Source of the DNA: Thermoplasmata archaeon
Lineage (GTDB): Archaea; Thermoplasmatota; Thermoplasmata; Lutacidiplasmatales; UBA184
Assembly (NCBI GenBank): GCA_027314915.1
Contig: DAHUZZ010000007.1
Coordinates: 1 to 64,000 of the forward strand
DNA: 64,000 nt
Reading direction: 5' to 3'
Made by a program: the position numbers and the translations under genes. Shown piece by piece: positions 27,331-63,175 of this stretch. The notes beneath the pieces are model-generated. The model saw nothing but the letters and a program-made list of their open reading frames with translations. It did no database searches and was not told the origin of the DNA. The stretch's first letter is position 1. Every line of letters begins with the position of its first letter.

Positions 27331-29340
27331 CTAGGGGCCGAGCGGGCGCTCGCAGACCGGGCAGAAGGGCGCTCCCGCGGGGGCCGTCGCCCCGCACTCC
27401 GGGCAGGGGACCACGGGACCCGCGGCCGGAGGATGCGGCGCGGGCTTCCTCCCCGCGGGGCGGTGCCGGGCCCCGTTCCAGGCCACCGCGATCCCCACCA
27501 GAAGGAGCGCCGCGATGACCGCCACGCCCACGTAGGCGAGCACGCCCGCGAAGGGGCCGGTGGGCGGCGGGGCGATGGGGATCGTGGCCGTCGCCGGCCG
27601 GACGGTGACGATCGTGCGGGCCGAGACCTTCCCGCCGGAGGCATCCCCGACCGTGAGCACGACCGTGTACTCGGAGGGGGACGCCCACGCGTGGGAGGTG
27701 GTGCAGCCGGTGGCGGTGTGGGAGTCCCCGAACGCCCACGTGCACTGGTAGGCCCCGATCCCGCCGTCGACCGCGGCCGAGAGGTTGATCGGGTCGCCGG
27801 CCGGGGGGAGCGCGTCGGAGAGGCCGATGTGCGCCGTCAGGGGCAGACCGATCTCGACGTTCGCCAGGCTCACGTTCGCCGCGACCCCCAGGCCGTCGGT
27901 GACGGTGAGCTCCACGGTGTAGTTGCCCGCGTGGAGGTAGGCGTGCTCGGCGAGCGGCCCGGTGGCGGTCCCGCCGTCGCCGAACTCCCAGAGGTAGCTG
28001 TAGGGCGGGCCCGCACCCCCGGAGGCCGCGCCGGAGAAGTTGAGCGTCTGCGCGATCGCGGCGTCCGACTCCGAGACCTGGCCCGCGACCAGGAGCGGGG
28101 CGATGCGGACCGGGACCGAAGCGGAGGACCGGCCCCCGGCCGAGTCGACGACCGTGACGACGGCGGTGAAGTTCCCCGGGGCGGTGTAGCCGTGCGTGAC
28201 CCGGGCCCCGTCCGCCGTCCCGCCGTCGCCGAAGTTCCACGAGATGCTGCGCAGCGGGGCGAGCCCGCCGGTCACCGACGCGTTGAACTCGAGGGCGTAG
28301 CCGGGGTCCGCCACCGCGTGGCTCACGGTCGCGTTCACCGCGGGGAGCGCGTACACGGCGAGGGAGAAGTCCGTGGACGAGGCCGGGTCCGAGAGGAGGT
28401 CCGTCACGGTGCACTGCGCGGTGTAGATGCCGGGCTGCCGGTAGGCGTGGGTCGTGTTGGCCGTGTCGGAGCTCGTCCCGTCCCCGAAGCTCCAGAGGTA
28501 CTGGTAGGGCGGCAGACCCCCGCTCGCCGAGCAGGAGAAGTTCCCGGCCTGTCCGACGTCCTCGGCGGCGGGCTGGACCGCCGCGTTCGCCGACAGCGGC
28601 GCGATCCAGGAGATGTTCACGACGTCCGAGGGGTTGCTCACCGCCTGCTCCCCGCAGCAAAAGTCCACGATGGTGACCTCGAACTGGTCGTACTGCCGGA
28701 ACGGGGAGGTGAGCGCGAGCGTCGTGTTGTTGACGTCCCCGATCTGGTCGAGGGCCGTCCACGGCCCGCCGGAGCTCGCGCCGCTGAACACGTAGTCCGA
28801 GAAGGTGATCGGCCCGCCGTACGTCGCGTAGTTCGTCCAGGCGAACTCCGGCCGCGCCCGGTGCGGGTGCAGGACGAGACGCGGGTCCCTGGGCTGGGTC
28901 GCGCGGAGGACCGAGGAGCTCGCGCTCCGGTCGAGCGGCCCCTGGACCGCCACCTGGTAGTCGTAGGTCGTGGCGGGCGCGAGGCCCGTGACGGTGAAGT
29001 TGGCGGAGGTCGCGTTGAGTACGCTGGTCACGTTCGACCACGGCCCCCCGGGCCCCTCGGTGGAGACCTGGAGCGTGCTCGTCCCCTGGGCACCCTCGCT
29101 CGATCCGTTCCAGCTCAGCCCGAGGACCGTGGGGTCCATCCCGGTGACCTGGAGCTGGCCCCCGGTCCCGTGGTCCCCCGCCACGGGAGCGTCCGCCCCC
29201 CGTCCGATCGCCGCCCGGTCGATCCCGGGCGGAGCGCCGGGCGCCCCCGGTGCACGGGGCGTCTCGAAGCCCGAGAGGGCGATCGAGAGCACCACCACCG
29301 ACGTCGCCAAGGCAAGAAGCCGTCCCGGCCGTGACTCCAT
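27331..29340 (-). CDS. surface FN3/PKD protein with cytoplasmic zinc ribbon
   Basis: About 669 residues from the ATG at 29340; a TTG five codons upstream is possible. The signal peptide is followed by two fibronectin III-like modules (LQVTGMDPTVLGLSWNGSS, ATTYDYQVAV) and about four PKD modules recognisable by WSFGDG, WNFGDGG, WEFGDGG and WAFGDSH. One helix (FAGVLAYVGVAVIAALLLVG) leads to a cytoplasmic tail ending in a zinc ribbon, CPECGATAPAGAPFCPVCER. An external adhesive stalk joined to an internal zinc ribbon is unusual and suggests signalling or assembly across the membrane. It converges on the glycoside hydrolase gene, with 4 nt between them. Confidence 0.8.
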   Translation of the reverse strand: MESRPGRLLALATSVVVLSIALSGFETPRAPGAPGAPPGIDRAAIGRGADAPVAGDHGTGGQLQVTGMDPTVLGLSWNGSSEGAQGTSTLQVSTEGPGGPWSNVTSVLNATSANFTVTGLAPATTYDYQVAVQGPLDRSASSSVLRATQPRDPRLVLHPHRARPEFAWTNYATYGGPITFSDYVFSGASSGGPWTALDQIGDVNNTTLALTSPFRQYDQFEVTIVDFCCGEQAVSNPSDVVNISWIAPLSANAAVQPAAEDVGQAGNFSCSASGGLPPYQYLWSFGDGTSSDTANTTHAYRQPGIYTAQCTVTDLLSDPASSTDFSLAVYALPAVNATVSHAVADPGYALEFNASVTGGLAPLRSISWNFGDGGTADGARVTHGYTAPGNFTAVVTVVDSAGGRSSASVPVRIAPLLVAGQVSESDAAIAQTLNFSGAASGGAGPPYSYLWEFGDGGTATGPLAEHAYLHAGNYTVELTVTDGLGVAANVSLANVEIGLPLTAHIGLSDALPPAGDPINLSAAVDGGIGAYQCTWAFGDSHTATGCTTSHAWASPSEYTVVLTVGDASGGKVSARTIVTVRPATATIPIAPPPTGPFAGVLAYVGVAVIAALLLVGIAVAWNGARHRPAGRKPAPHPPAAGPVVPCPECGATAPAGAPFCPVCERPLGP

Positions 29341-45888: not shown

Positions 45889-46122
45889 ACCTCGCCCCTG
45901 CCTTCCGTGGGGTGGTACCAATGGGGACGGAAGCCCTACCAATCTGCCAAACTGTAGCAACCTCGACGGTGGGCTCGTCGACGGGTCGGGGACTCCGCCC
46001 CAAACCCAAGCCACCCAACCCACCGCACCGAAATCGTGAGGGTCCGCTGGGAAGCAAGACAAACCCATCGAGCCCTACCCAGCGAGAAAACGCGGCCGTC
46101 AGGCAGGGGGACGAACTACGTT
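45889..46122. other. intergenic stretch of lower GC
   Basis: About 230 bases between two minus-strand genes. Frames here give only Pro/Arg-rich peptides without motif. It marks the start of a less GC-rich tract that runs to about 48.8 kb. No RNA fold was recognised. Confidence 0.4.
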
Positions 46123-46665
46123 TCAGTGCAGGTCGATAATCAGAGTCCCTGAATATGCGGTCGTCGGAGTGATCAGCTTGACCGTCACGGTTGCAGTCGC
46201 TCTGCTCGAGCCACTGTACCATGTGAATGGCGCGTTCGTGCTTCCCACCCCGAACCCGACCGTCTCGATGTAGACGCTCCCGCTTGAGCACGTGTTCGGA
46301 CCGAAGAACCCAGGGTAGCAAGTCAGGGTGTAGGAGACCGTTGGCGTGCTCCCGGCCTTAACGGAGAAGCCAGGAGAACTGCCAAGACTGTTGCCATTCT
46401 GGGTCCAAATGACTTGGCTCACACGAATCTTGTAAGGATTGAGCAGGTTGCCCGGTTCAGCCTCGTAGAAATAGAGCGACAGAGCGACCACGACGACGAC
46501 GACCACGGCCGCTATGGCCAAAGCACCCCTTCTTCCACCTCCACGCCGATGTGCTTTCGCGGGCTGGCCATCGGAGTGGGCGGCGGAGTTGCCACACTTC
46601 GGACAAAAGGCCGCGCCAGCCCTCAATGGGTTGCCGCACTTGGAACAGAAACCGCCCTCCGCCAT
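46123..46665 (-). CDS. zinc-ribbon membrane protein with exterior domain
   Basis: A 180-residue protein. An N-terminal zinc ribbon, FCSKCGNPLRAGAAFCPKCG (6-25), is followed by an Arg/Gly-rich linker (HRRGGGRRG) and one helix (ALAIAAVVVVVVVALSLYFY). About 110 beta-rich exterior residues come next, with two Cys that could pair (LTCYPGFFGPNTC). The ribbon faces the cytoplasm. It directly abuts the next upstream gene, which also has a zinc ribbon and helices, so the two form an operon. Function unknown. Base composition is less GC-rich than in most of the window. Confidence 0.75.
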   Translation of the reverse strand: MAEGGFCSKCGNPLRAGAAFCPKCGNSAAHSDGQPAKAHRRGGGRRGALAIAAVVVVVVVALSLYFYEAEPGNLLNPYKIRVSQVIWTQNGNSLGSSPGFSVKAGSTPTVSYTLTCYPGFFGPNTCSSGSVYIETVGFGVGSTNAPFTWYSGSSRATATVTVKLITPTTAYSGTLIIDLH

Positions 46666-47073
46666 TTACTGTCCTCGGCGGCGGTGAAGGCTGATCTGGT
46701 GAAGTGCCCAGCCAATGGGCGCGAGGAAGAAGCCCGTCCCTGCCAAGGCCGCGAACTCCTCCAAGTAGGTCTTCAGCGAATCGAGAGTCGTGGACGACCC
46801 CAAGGAGGCCGTGCCCACGACGAAGACCATGAAACCCACGAGAATGAGCAAGCCTCCGAGCAGAACGAGAATCATGCCCACCGTGAGCCCCTCGGGGAGC
46901 CCGACCGTTACGTAGCGGATTTCAGGTGTCCTCGAATTCGAGCCCGCCGAGCCACCTGAGGTGCCCGCAGGTAGCTCCGCGGCGCGGAGCTTCGCCCCGC
47001 ACTTCGCACAGAAGAGGTCGTCCGAAGTGTTCACGGCACCGCAGCTCGGACACACGGCCAAGCTTTCGGGCAT
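46666..47073 (-). CDS. zinc-ribbon membrane protein with two helices
   Basis: A protein of about 135 residues. The N-terminal zinc ribbon has CPSCGAVNTSDDLFCAKCG. A polar linker and two hydrophobic helices follow (GMILVLLGGLLILVGFMVFVV and FAALAGTGFFLAPIGWAL). A basic C-terminus ends the chain. The ATG at 47073 fits a TATA-like box 27 nt upstream better than the TTG at 47079. The stop codon is directly followed by the start of the second zinc-ribbon gene. Function unknown; zinc ribbons in such proteins often mediate protein contacts. Confidence 0.72.
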   Translation of the reverse strand: MPESLAVCPSCGAVNTSDDLFCAKCGAKLRAAELPAGTSGGSAGSNSRTPEIRYVTVGLPEGLTVGMILVLLGGLLILVGFMVFVVGTASLGSSTTLDSLKTYLEEFAALAGTGFFLAPIGWALHQISLHRRRGQ

Positions 47074-47095
47074 TCTCAAACCATGAAAGGTCAGC

Positions 47096-47104
47096 CTGTA
47101 TCAA
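47096..47104 (-). promoter_or_regulatory. TATA-like box of the zinc-ribbon gene pair
   Basis: The minus strand reads TTGATACAG, centred about 27 nt before the ATG at 47073. Confidence 0.45.
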
Positions 47105-47196
47105 CCTGCCGCAAGAGCCGCCCTCCGTCAGCTTCTCGGTAGTGTGAAAGAACAGGTGGTAGGCGGGGGGACCTCTCCCCGAGCCGGGACCGCTAA

Positions 47197-48425
47197 GAAC
47201 CGGAACGAAGAGAGGCCCATGAGAGAGAATACCACCCACCGATAGAGCTGGCCGGTCTGCTGAACCGCGCCGACCACCTCGGACGGGACGCTGTGACCCG
47301 ACTCCTCGAGGAGACCCAAGAGGAACTATGGGTGAACCTCCGCCGAGAACATCTCCCCGATCGTCGACGGAGATTCGTCCGCCACGGTACCCGACCTCGG
47401 ACCCTGATCACCCGCCTCGGTCGGATCGACTCCATCGTCCGAGGGATCCATGACCGTCGGAGAGGAGGTACCTTCGCTCCGCTCCCCTGCGCCCTCGGTC
47501 TCGGGAAGAAGCGCTACACTCCCGAGCTCCGCCTCCCCGCGGCCGAGCTCGCGACCCGCACGAGCCACGGTGAGGCCGCTGAGGGGCTCGAGCCGACCGT
47601 GGGGCTGCGCATCCCTCGTCGGATCATCTGGAACTTCCTGGCCGAGATCGCCGTGAGCGTCGAGCGAGCACTCCACGCCCCGACGGCCCCTCCGTCCGTC
47701 GAGCGCTCGGTCCATCAGGCGGACTCGACCTTCGTCAAGAGCCAGCAGCGGAGAGACGCTTAGCACGCCATCCACGTGGCCATGACCCAGGACCCGGAAC
47801 ACCACGTGCATCTCGCAGCTGTGAAGGTCGACGGACCCGCCCAATCGGTGCTGGTGGGACTCGAGGTGGACGGTCTGGTCACCGACGACGATAGTGGGCT
47901 GGTGGCCGTGCCGAGCCGAGTTCACCAACTCTGCCACGTCCACTTCGTTCGGCTGGTGGGGGAGTTGCTCCGAGAGGAGGGTGTGGGTCTGCTCGATCGA
48001 GAGACGCCCACCGGCGAGGTTCGAGGGATCCTAGCGCGTCTGCGCCACTCGGTGGAGTTCCACGCGACCCGTCGGGAGTGGAGGGCGATCGCAGAGCGAG
48101 TGCGGGGCACCCTGAACGAGCTGGAGGGAGTGGCCCGACGGCTCGAGCGGGGGGCGTGCCCCCACTCGGCGCGGACCATTCGGCGGGAGGCGAAGGCGCT
48201 GGTGGTGTTCGCCGAGGTGGCGGTGCACGGGATATCCACATGCCCGCGACGTCGAACGGAGTGGAGCGGGTTATGGGGATGATCGCGGATCGGTGCGAGC
48301 GCAAGTGGGCGCGGTGGGGGGGAGGTTTGTGGAACCTGTTCGTGCTGCTCTTGGCGCGGAAGACTCGGCGCGCGACCTGCGAGCGGGCGGTCCACGAGTA
48401 TACGAGGCGGGGAGCCTACGATTGA
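47197..48425 (+). pseudogene. degenerate transposase (ISH6/ISLre2-like)
   Basis: A transposase of roughly 400 residues broken at two places. From 47197 the frame reads IELAGLLNRADHLGRDAV, then LEETQEELWVNLRREHLPDR, KRYTPELRLPAAELATRTS and ADSTFVKSQQRRDA up to an in-frame TAG at 47761-47763. Directly after it the same frame continues HAIHVAMTQDPEHHVHLAAV to about 48235. There the frame must shift by one base to reach SNGVERVMGMIADRCERKWA, the conserved C-terminal block, ending at TGA near 48425. No good ATG precedes the first part. Family assignment rests on the motif order and is tentative. Its 3' end overlaps the 3' end of the SSB gene by about 10 nt. No terminal inverted repeats were found. 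Confidence 0.7.
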
Positions 48426-48775
48426 ACGGTTCCGTCAGGGGCGTCGTCCACCGATTCCGTCACACCACTCAGCTTCTCCAACTTCCCAGTTCGACCGAGC
48501 CCGATCTGCGGCCGTCCCTGATAGTCCTTGACCCAGCCTTCCGTGATACGGACCCGGTCGCCCTGAGCCACGAGGTCGACCTCGGAACCCCATAGCACCA
48601 ACGCGATCTCACCCGTGCCGTCCTTGAGGCGGGCATTCCGAACCTTCGTCTTGCCGCCTTGACGATTCTCGACCTCGCGGGCCTCGTCAAGTTGGACGAC
48701 TTCGGCCTCGATGGTCGCTACTCTCGACGGCCGCAGGTCCGAGATGAAGATCTTCGGGGGTTGACTCGTCGGCAC
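48416..48775 (-). CDS. OB-fold single-stranded DNA-binding protein
   Basis: A 119-residue single OB-fold protein of the archaeal SSB/RPA type, binding ssDNA in replication and repair. ISDLRPSRVATIEAEVVQLD opens strand 1, and VRNARLKDGTGEIALVLWG is the central signature with the aromatic Trp. VAQGDRVRITEGWVKDYQGR follows, and the C-terminus is short and acidic (ESVDDAPDG). The start is GTG, with a TATA-like box about 28 nt upstream. The dead transposase ends within its last codons, so insertion nearby may have replaced the original 3' end. Length is normal for single-OB members. Confidence 0.83.
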   Translation of the reverse strand: MPTSQPPKIFISDLRPSRVATIEAEVVQLDEAREVENRQGGKTKVRNARLKDGTGEIALVLWGSEVDLVAQGDRVRITEGWVKDYQGRPQIGLGRTGKLEKLSGVTESVDDAPDGTVQS

Positions 48776-48798
48776 GGTGGGGCGGTAGCTCGACGGGC

Positions 48799-48808
48799 CG
48801 ATAGAGAT
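48799..48808 (-). promoter_or_regulatory. TATA-like box of the SSB gene
   Basis: The minus strand reads TCTCTATCGG, centred about 28 nt before the GTG start at 48775. Confidence 0.4.
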
Positions 48809-48912
48809 TGTCCCGAGCCGTCGGCGGGTGGGCCGATCCCGCCGGCGGGCGTGTCGAGGTGTGGCAGACTGGTATGGCTTCCGAGGGGACTGGTATCACC
48901 CCTGACGGTGCA

Positions 48913-48987
48913 TGGGCCCAGTCGGATTTGAACCGACGACCTCCCGGTTATCAGCCGGGTGCTCCAGCCAACCTAAGCTATGGGCCC
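48913..48987 (-). tRNA. tRNA-Ile (anticodon GAT)
   Basis: The minus strand folds as a 75-nt tRNA. The acceptor GGGCCCA pairs with TGGGCCC and the discriminator is A. The anticodon stem CCGGC/ACCGG-type pairs around the loop CTGATAA, giving GAT. The T arm is GTCGG-TTCAAAT-CCGAC. CCA is not encoded and no intron is present. Confidence 0.93.
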
Positions 48988-49009
48988 CATCGCGGGGGAC
49001 CATATCGGT

Positions 49010-49017
49010 CTAAAACA
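49010..49017 (-). promoter_or_regulatory. TATA-like box of tRNA-Ile
   Basis: The minus strand reads TGTTTTAG, centred about 27 nt upstream of the tRNA 5' end. Confidence 0.5.
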
Positions 49018-49081
49018 CTTTTCTCCGGATCGACGCGCCCGGTACGGCCCGCGGCGGCCGAACTAGGACGGTCTCTCCGCC

Positions 49082-49498
49082 TCACTCTTCGACACCATCG
49101 AACTTCCCTGCGAGCTCCTTCGCCAGGACGAGGACCAACTCGGAGAGACTCGGGGAGGTCCCGGCCGTCCTAGGTCGCGTCTCGAGGAAGATGTTCCTCC
49201 CGTCCCGCCTCCACTGGTAGGACGCTCGCTCGGCCGCGGGTTCCGACGGACCCGGCGTTTTCGATTCCTCCATCTTCCAGGAACGTGATTCGGGCGCCTC
49301 GACCAGGAAGAGGTGCCCCCAGTGCTCCGCGCCTCCGCCGGACCTCCGCTTCAGGACGGCGCGCTTCCAGCCCCGGACCTCGCCGTCCGCCGAAGGGAGC
49401 GGCCACCAGGGGCCCGCATAGACTCCCGCGAACTCCGGTCGTCCCAGGACCTCCCGGAGGACCCGATCGACCGTGTCGGCCGTGTCCGTGAGCAGCAC
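49082..49498 (-). CDS. hypothetical protein
   Basis: About 139 residues from the GTG at 49498; the frame is open to an ATG at 49540. Sequence is compositionally normal, with VLREVLGRPEFAGVYAGPWW, the basic GWKRAVLKRRSGGG, and a C-terminal helix (LSELVLVLAKELAGKFDG). There are no membrane segments or signal. I recognise no domain. It lies alone between tRNA-Ile and the divergent DUF1684 gene. Confidence 0.5.
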   Translation of the reverse strand: MLLTDTADTVDRVLREVLGRPEFAGVYAGPWWPLPSADGEVRGWKRAVLKRRSGGGAEHWGHLFLVEAPESRSWKMEESKTPGPSEPAAERASYQWRRDGRNIFLETRPRTAGTSPSLSELVLVLAKELAGKFDGVEE

Positions 49499-49550
49499 GC
49501 GTGACTCCACGGGGTGAGGGGGTGACCCGCATGGCGCCACGCCCCCGAAC

Positions 49551-62356: not shown

Positions 62357-63175
62357 CTAGCTCGCCCGGACCCCGACCGAGACCTCTTCGAGGGTGGTAC
62401 AGGTGGGGCAGAGTGCGCCGTGGCCCGCCGATTCCGCGGCGCCGGCGCAGTCGGCGCAGAGCGGAAGCCCGCATCCCCGACAGAGCGCGGCCGCCCCACC
62501 GGAGGGCAGGTGGCCGTCGCACCCGGCGCAGCCCTTCGCGGTCGCTCCGTTCGGGGGCGGGATGCTCGTCGGAGCCGCCGCGCGGGGGCTCGGTCGGACC
62601 GGCCGGGGGGCCTGGAGGAAGCTCGACAGCTCGTCCAGGCTCTCGAGGGTCTCGTCCCGCCCCGCCGCGCCCGTGCCGGGGAGGAAGGGCAGCGGACCGG
62701 TCGCCTCGGAGAACCCCGCGGCCCCGACGGCCGCGGCGTAGTCGATCCAGGCCCGGGCCGCCGCGGCATCGCCGCTCCCCACCGGGCGCGCCGGGGAGCG
62801 CGCGACCCGCGGGGCGGGGGGCCCCGGCCGGGATGCGGCGAACCGGGGGGCCCGGGGCTCCCACCGCCGCTCGGGGGCGGGATCGGGGTACTCCTCGGGA
62901 GCGGGGGTCGGGGCGACGTCCCGGCGAGATGCGGGTTCCGGCTCCTCCCCTTCGTCCGCGGCCAGCAGGGCGCCGACGAGCCCGCCCACCAGGGCGATCA
63001 TCCCGATGCCCACGAGGAGGATCCAGATGGGGATCGGGTCGTTCCGCACCGGGTTCGTGGCGTACATCCAGACGGAGAGCACGAGGCAGACGACGCCGAA
63101 GAAGAGGAACGGCATGCTCTCCCGGATCCCGTCCAGGTACCGGTGGAACCGGGGGGGCGTCGAGGGACGCCGCAC
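62357..63175 (-). CDS. membrane protein with C-terminal zinc ribbons
   Basis: A 272-residue protein. Two helices at the N-terminus (FLFFGVVCLVLSVWMYAT and IWILLVGIGMIALVGGLVGALL) are followed by a 130-residue Pro/Ala/Arg-rich disordered linker. The C-terminal cysteine cluster KGCAGCDGHLPSGGAAALCR continues GCGLPLCADCAG and LCPTC, making at least two zinc-binding knuckles, B-box- or ribbon-like. The Cys region faces the cytoplasm. It belongs with the other zinc-ribbon membrane proteins in the window, but with reversed order (helices first). Function unknown. It converges on the HsdR-N-like gene. Confidence 0.7.
   Translation of the reverse strand: MRRPSTPPRFHRYLDGIRESMPFLFFGVVCLVLSVWMYATNPVRNDPIPIWILLVGIGMIALVGGLVGALLAADEGEEPEPASRRDVAPTPAPEEYPDPAPERRWEPRAPRFAASRPGPPAPRVARSPARPVGSGDAAAARAWIDYAAAVGAAGFSEATGPLPFLPGTGAAGRDETLESLDELSSFLQAPRPVRPSPRAAAPTSIPPPNGATAKGCAGCDGHLPSGGAAALCRGCGLPLCADCAGAAESAGHGALCPTCTTLEEVSVGVRAS

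Follow-up and report, generated by a model that had tools for sequence, protein, structure and literature searches.

Two adjoining zinc-ribbon membrane proteins in an archaeal genome, and the ribbon as an exchangeable tail on unrelated membrane proteins of the lineage

Introduction

In B. subtilis, YdjG and YdjH are both needed to bring the SPFH protein YdjI, together with PspA, to the membrane (PMC8581546, PMC9239133, PMC11237479). YdjG consists of zinc ribbons and a membrane segment (PMC11237479, PMC9239133), and YdjI itself bears a C-terminal zinc finger (PMC8581546); according to two-hybrid data it is YdjH, and not the ribbon protein YdjG, that makes the direct contact to YdjI and PspA (PMC8581546). 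A literature search on archaeal membrane ribbons gave no directly relevant paper.

Here we describe two adjacent genes, ORF1 and ORF2, that lie within an analysed stretch of 64,000 nucleotides of archaeal DNA (the window). An earlier note on this DNA had described them as an operon of two zinc-ribbon membrane proteins and, counting two further proteins of the window, had proposed a membrane-tethered recruitment system, perhaps for surface-protein or secretion complexes. YdjG is the closest experimental precedent for the pair: both cases have in common an N-terminal zinc ribbon on a membrane segment, two side-by-side membrane proteins and a ribbon-bearing SPFH protein in the organism.

Methods

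The source genome (G000) is an archaeal metagenome assembly of 1.85 Mb in 76 contigs and is 84% complete; the window is GC-rich (71.6%). Ribbons were recognized by the pattern C-x2-C-x(~10)-C-x2-C and the PF13240 gathering score of 25 bits. Searches with PF13240 and with an ORF1 profile covered 61 genomes across the class, and about 100 relatives were searched for the intact pair. The helix positions given for ORF1 and ORF2 were taken from AlphaFold2 models.

Results

Predicted structure of ORF1 and ORF2

The TAA of ORF2, the upstream gene, directly abuts the ATG of ORF1 (Table 1), an arrangement that makes translational coupling of the two likely; a TTG six bases upstream of the ORF2 ATG is also a possible start. 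Each protein carries one C-x2-C-x10-C-x2-C ribbon scoring above the Pfam cut-off, with cysteines C7, C10, C21 and C24 in ORF1 (PF13240, 32.2 bits) and C8, C11, C22 and C25 in ORF2 (PF13248, 32.6 bits; PF13240, 30.3 bits), through which zinc would be bound. In the AlphaFold2 models, ORF1 has a single TM helix (residues 45–69) and a confident beta-sandwich at about residues 79–180 (pLDDT >90 over residues 81–180), and ORF2 has two helices (residues 65–90 and 97–134; mean pLDDT 72), while the linkers (residues 30–44 of ORF1 and 33–47 of ORF2) fall below pLDDT 50 and are probably flexible. The Pfam matches and modelled helices thus confirm that zinc-ribbon membrane proteins with N-terminal ribbons are encoded where the earlier note had placed them.

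Table 1. Positions of the genes and features of the window that are discussed in the text
Feature	Positions	Strand	Description
ORF1, 180 aa, ATG start	46123-46665	-	N-terminal ribbon, basic linker, one TM helix, predicted Ig-like beta-sandwich (PF13240 and AlphaFold2)
ORF2, 135 aa from ATG	46666-47073	-	N-terminal ribbon, low-confidence linker, two-helix hairpin, basic C-terminus (PF13248 and AlphaFold2)
PKD-domain surface protein	27331-29340	-	C-terminal anchor helix and predicted cytosolic ribbon
Two-helix protein with C-terminal eight-Cys (4xCxxC) module	62357-63175	-	Different zinc type
Decayed UPF0236 (ISLre2-type) transposase	47236-48425	+	Sits between the ORF1/ORF2 pair and the OB-fold gene
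tRNA-Ile (gat)	48913-48987	-	
OB-fold gene	48416-48775		

When the outer domain of ORF1 was compared with solved structures, Foldseek gave no match with E <=0.001; its best match was the FimA pilin (Ig-like; E 0.022, TM-score 0.37–0.41), a similarity that allows only 'Ig-like sandwich' to be assigned to what is predicted to be an extracellular Ig-like beta-sandwich. The membrane and outer parts of both proteins matched no Pfam or NCBIfam family. A PDB sequence profile, applied to find a function for the ORF1 outer domain, returned noise (best E 0.24; ba3 oxidase subunit II, 0.4). A defence system was rejected (no PADLOC match), as was a viral origin of the pair, given that viral contigs yielded ribbon matches only.

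Conservation and genomic setting of the pair

Among the roughly 100 relatives, only a second species of the genus (G004) also has the intact pair, with the same gene order, protein identities of 61% and 74%, and both frames intact as they are in G000. There it lies near the same tRNA-Ile, with the tRNA in the opposite relative orientation. Its abutting stop and start codons and its conservation in G004 mark the pair as a genuine unit of two genes, in line with the operon proposed earlier. Outside G000, near-full-length matches in the collection of named genomes came only from two Thermoplasmata metagenome genomes.

In another genus (g7), G016 has an ORF1 homologue (57% identity) that directly adjoins rpiA (identified from its sequence), and at this same spot by rpiA G011 has an ORF2 relative (29% identity), the synteny being at 78–87% DNA identity. 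An ancestral pair with differential loss of its halves would explain this pattern; as for remnants of the missing partners, no ORF2 was recognizable upstream of ORF1 in G016, and no ORF1 in G011. It is possible that the pair moved as a cassette.

The pair is AT-rich for the genome, with GC contents of 0.60 and 0.64 for its two genes against 0.72 for the window, and a GC3 of 0.70 and 0.79 against a mean of 0.91 (SD 0.07); in G004 the GC3 values of the pair are 0.64 and 0.68. Its neighbours are an SBP/PKD surface protein, the transposase remnant and the OB-fold gene. The transposase (PF06782, 24.9 bits) has an internal stop and a frame change and is present as a single copy in the genome. A search for flanking or terminal repeats marking a mobile unit gave only chance-like short pairs in 46900-49100, on the tRNA side. 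We also observed that a stretch of lower GC (46100-49500; 0.58–0.69 versus 0.72), flanked by the tRNA-Ile, spans the pair, the transposase remnant and the OB-fold gene.

Abundance and distribution of the ribbon

Further members were indeed found when ribbons were counted genome-wide, as the earlier note had advised: G000 has 19 PF13240 matches in about 14 distinct frames, about nine of which also encode a membrane helix. The family is present in 61/61 relatives searched, with 9–51 matches per genome, and the same ribbon type is also found in SPFH scaffolds and in surface proteins. Among named genomes the ORF1 ribbon found matches in Clostridia, Acidobacteria, Bacteroidetes, Planctomycetes and others, and at 38 of the 47 ribbon-matching loci, nearly all of them bacterial and two on viral contigs, the same protein encodes at least one helix. 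The ribbon is a generic, widespread module, with nothing unusual in the ribbons of ORF1 and ORF2 themselves. A ribbon type matching unrelated proteins had been named beforehand as the outcome that would speak against a common system, and this is what we found, in all the relatives as well as in many bacteria.

Within the 64-kb window three Zn_Ribbon_1 frames are seen where 0.48 are expected from the roughly 14 frames in 1.85 Mb (Poisson P 0.013, rising to 0.075 with the adjacent pair counted once), a mild clustering whose P values ignore the selection of the window for the pattern.

Exchange of the ribbon for other tails

The ORF1 profile search gave matches in 21 of the 61 genomes. An N-terminal ribbon is present in 12 of the 26 homologues with the beta-domain that were read through and absent from the other 14; the ribbonless proteins have instead a Pro-rich N-terminus (e.g. 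L131, L139, L141, L151) or a short basic stub (L132, L140). Two ectodomain cysteines are conserved in nearly all ORF1 homologues, with or without the ribbon. Among 10 ORF2 relatives the ribbon is missing in two or three; as alternatives, the hairpin bears a Pro-rich tail in L023 and L027 and, in L030, a Cys-rich ribbon-like segment at the C-terminus. Most homologues of the PKD-domain surface protein likewise lack a ribbon, their terminal tail being basic or Pro-rich; one in G005 has the ribbon. Since the ribbon is swapped in all three families, it is a detachable tail, one of several (ribbon, Pro-rich, short basic stub) that are interchangeable on unrelated membrane proteins of the lineage.

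Other architectures were encountered in the course of these searches. An MscL channel (PF01741, E 1.5e-20) at L044:10982-11404 (G000 contig C33, 87981-88403) has a C-terminal CxxC-x10-CxxC ribbon-like tail. At L142:76-1929, a protein of 618 aa with 12 predicted helices and no Pfam match shows a C-terminal fusion to a possible ORF1-like helix and sandwich. In L190 and L195 (G015, G020) a paralogue with ribbon, helix and sandwich lies within a recurring neighbourhood that looks redox-related, judged by eye from sequence, its neighbours being thioredoxin-like, Rieske-like, AhpD-like and Ccc1/VIT-like proteins and a protein of 457 aa.

Topology

In 26 of 35 ribbon-plus-helix proteins the helix flank towards the ribbon is more basic than the other, in keeping with the positive-inside rule. 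Of the seven exceptions, five are double-ribbon proteins of an SPFH cluster (see below) whose hydrophobic segments are borderline, and one more is found in L079, where the segment is weak. The rule is held by 18 of 22 ORF1 homologues (P 0.002), including 10/10 of the ribbon carriers tested. A basic flank on the ribbon side leads us to predict that the ribbons of the membrane-tethered proteins face the cytosol.

Other zinc proteins of the window

By its sequence, the PKD-domain surface protein carries the same generic ribbon (sub-threshold for PF13240, with 17.9 bits for the protein and 23.4 bits when the genome was searched, against the cut-off of 25) but is otherwise unrelated to the pair. 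The 4xCxxC module of the two-helix protein gave no match to the Zn_Ribbon_1/3 models and is therefore placed with another zinc type, outside the ribbon group; this protein has a long linker, with homologues in 6/6 genomes of the genus searched and some elsewhere in the family. The count of four proteins in 64 kb that pair a zinc module with a helix thus holds, with one module differing in type. A single family was rejected for the four, only three of which share the ribbon type while the remaining parts are unrelated. No module is kept by all four and their homologues: three have ribbonless homologues and the fourth has another zinc module. What the four share is a fashion in tails and not a common family, and any further ribbon protein in the window appears as an independent user of the module, not as a part of the ORF1/ORF2 unit.

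An SPFH cluster elsewhere in the genome

On contig C3 of G000 (L040, ~36.0-39.4 kb), one strand encodes a 4-helix membrane protein, a ribbon-bearing helical protein, a three-ribbon SPFH protein (assigned by PF13421, Band_7_1) and a further ribbon protein. A ribbon protein of ~390 aa (the SPFH protein in G000) adjoining a double-ribbon protein of ~330 aa recurs in about 11 relatives. No genomic link of the pair to this cluster or to such a partner was found, and the PspA family (PF04012) has no match in G000, at its 84% completeness.

Discussion

We suggest that ORF1 and ORF2 probably form a co-translated two-protein membrane unit whose ribbons serve as generic docking or cap modules and are swappable tails. 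The two proteins, translated together, would make up a small membrane unit in which ORF1 lies N-in/C-out with its Ig-like sandwich outside, and the ORF2 hairpin has both ends inside; most likely they would bind each other within the membrane. The ribbons would hang in the cytosol from flexible linkers, and the outer sandwich may touch the envelope or a ligand, while the two ribbons together could provide a site at which a cytosolic protein docks. Against this explanation stand a neighbourhood in which no gene points to such a partner, the finding of the intact pair in just one other genome of about 100, and the low GC3 and transposase remnant, which allow for a recent and perhaps marginal acquisition. 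Moreover, the dispensability of the ribbon in relatives fits a purely structural role equally well.

Such a structural role, in which a partnerless ribbon, as a small folded cap, stabilizes the N-terminus, secures its N-in orientation or helps the cytosolic end to stay soluble (Pro-rich tails doing likewise), we regard as unlikely. It would account for the way in which ribbon, Pro-rich tail and basic stub freely replace one another on a given membrane core and for the use of a very short conserved module on linkers modelled with low confidence; however, the ribbon residues are intact in carriers, and since ribbons, like Pro-rich tails, commonly serve in interactions, their exchange is compatible with docking too.

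Quite doubtful is a reading in which the ribbons dock on the three-ribbon SPFH protein of C3 as their shared hub and the membrane ribbon proteins act as anchors or sensors in an envelope-stress system that lacks PspA but works in the manner of YdjG/YdjH/YdjI. The one-strand ribbon cluster with its SPFH protein, the recurrence of the two neighbouring ribbon proteins in relatives, and the need for YdjG and YdjH in the membrane placement of YdjI and PspA speak for it, but the pair is unlinked to C3, G000 gave no PspA match, clusters of the C3 type are widespread while the pair is rare, and the two-hybrid contact is made by YdjH and not by the ribbon protein.

That the pair is cargo of little function, mobile or acquired recently, which arrived near the tRNA-Ile with the now decayed transposase, is very unlikely: the low GC and GC3, the UPF0236 remnant alongside, the order rearranged around the same tRNA-Ile in G004 and the different site (rpiA) in genus g7 are set against frames intact in both genomes at the protein identities given above, a low GC3 common to G004, which suggests that the pair is older than the split, and the finding of no terminal repeats on the tRNA side.

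Returning to the two-protein membrane unit, we consider these two genes an ordinary pair, specific to the lineage and equipped with a zinc module that is very common, and not a new recruitment system. Of the recruitment system proposed earlier, the tethered ribbons, predicted to be cytosolic, survive; no support was found for four proteins acting as one system, given their unrelated outer parts and a ribbon that is dispensable in homologues, nor for the role suggested in surface-protein or secretion complexes. The useful result is that in this archaeal class the ribbon is an exchangeable tail, by prediction cytosolic, that is swapped with Pro-rich tails on the same core, and shared ribbons should not be read as a shared system. 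It is highly improbable that the pair serves as sensor and anchor in an archaeal envelope-stress system independent of PspA, with its two ribbons capturing the three-ribbon SPFH protein and ribbon-ribbon contacts tying many unrelated membrane proteins to a single scaffold beneath the membrane; should ribbons converge on the conserved SPFH scaffold, this would be a candidate membrane-stress platform for archaea without PspA.

Finally, considering the described systems, the C3 cluster resembles B. subtilis pspA-ydjGHI in make-up, in a genome without a PspA match. YdjG combines two ribbons with an NTF2-like domain related to YpeB (PMC11237479, PMC8581546), whereas the pair has one ribbon in each protein, a beta-sandwich in ORF1 and only a hairpin in ORF2; of the partners that the YdjG operon supplies, namely PspA, a TPM-domain protein and an SPFH protein, none is encoded next to the pair in the window. 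As a YdjG-type PSP membrane anchor the pair therefore fails on operon partners and ectodomain, and that it works like YdjG/H is a possibility. The zinc-ribbon membrane protein TcaA (NCBIfam NF053815) offers a parallel in layout only, that of ribbon plus helix, the weak match of ORF2 residues 7–78 reaching 12.9 bits against a cut-off of 550. The SHOCT domain, although helical, devoid of zinc and different in sequence, is like the ribbon in being short, portable and found on many unrelated proteins, including SPFH/band 7 proteins (PMC3581485).
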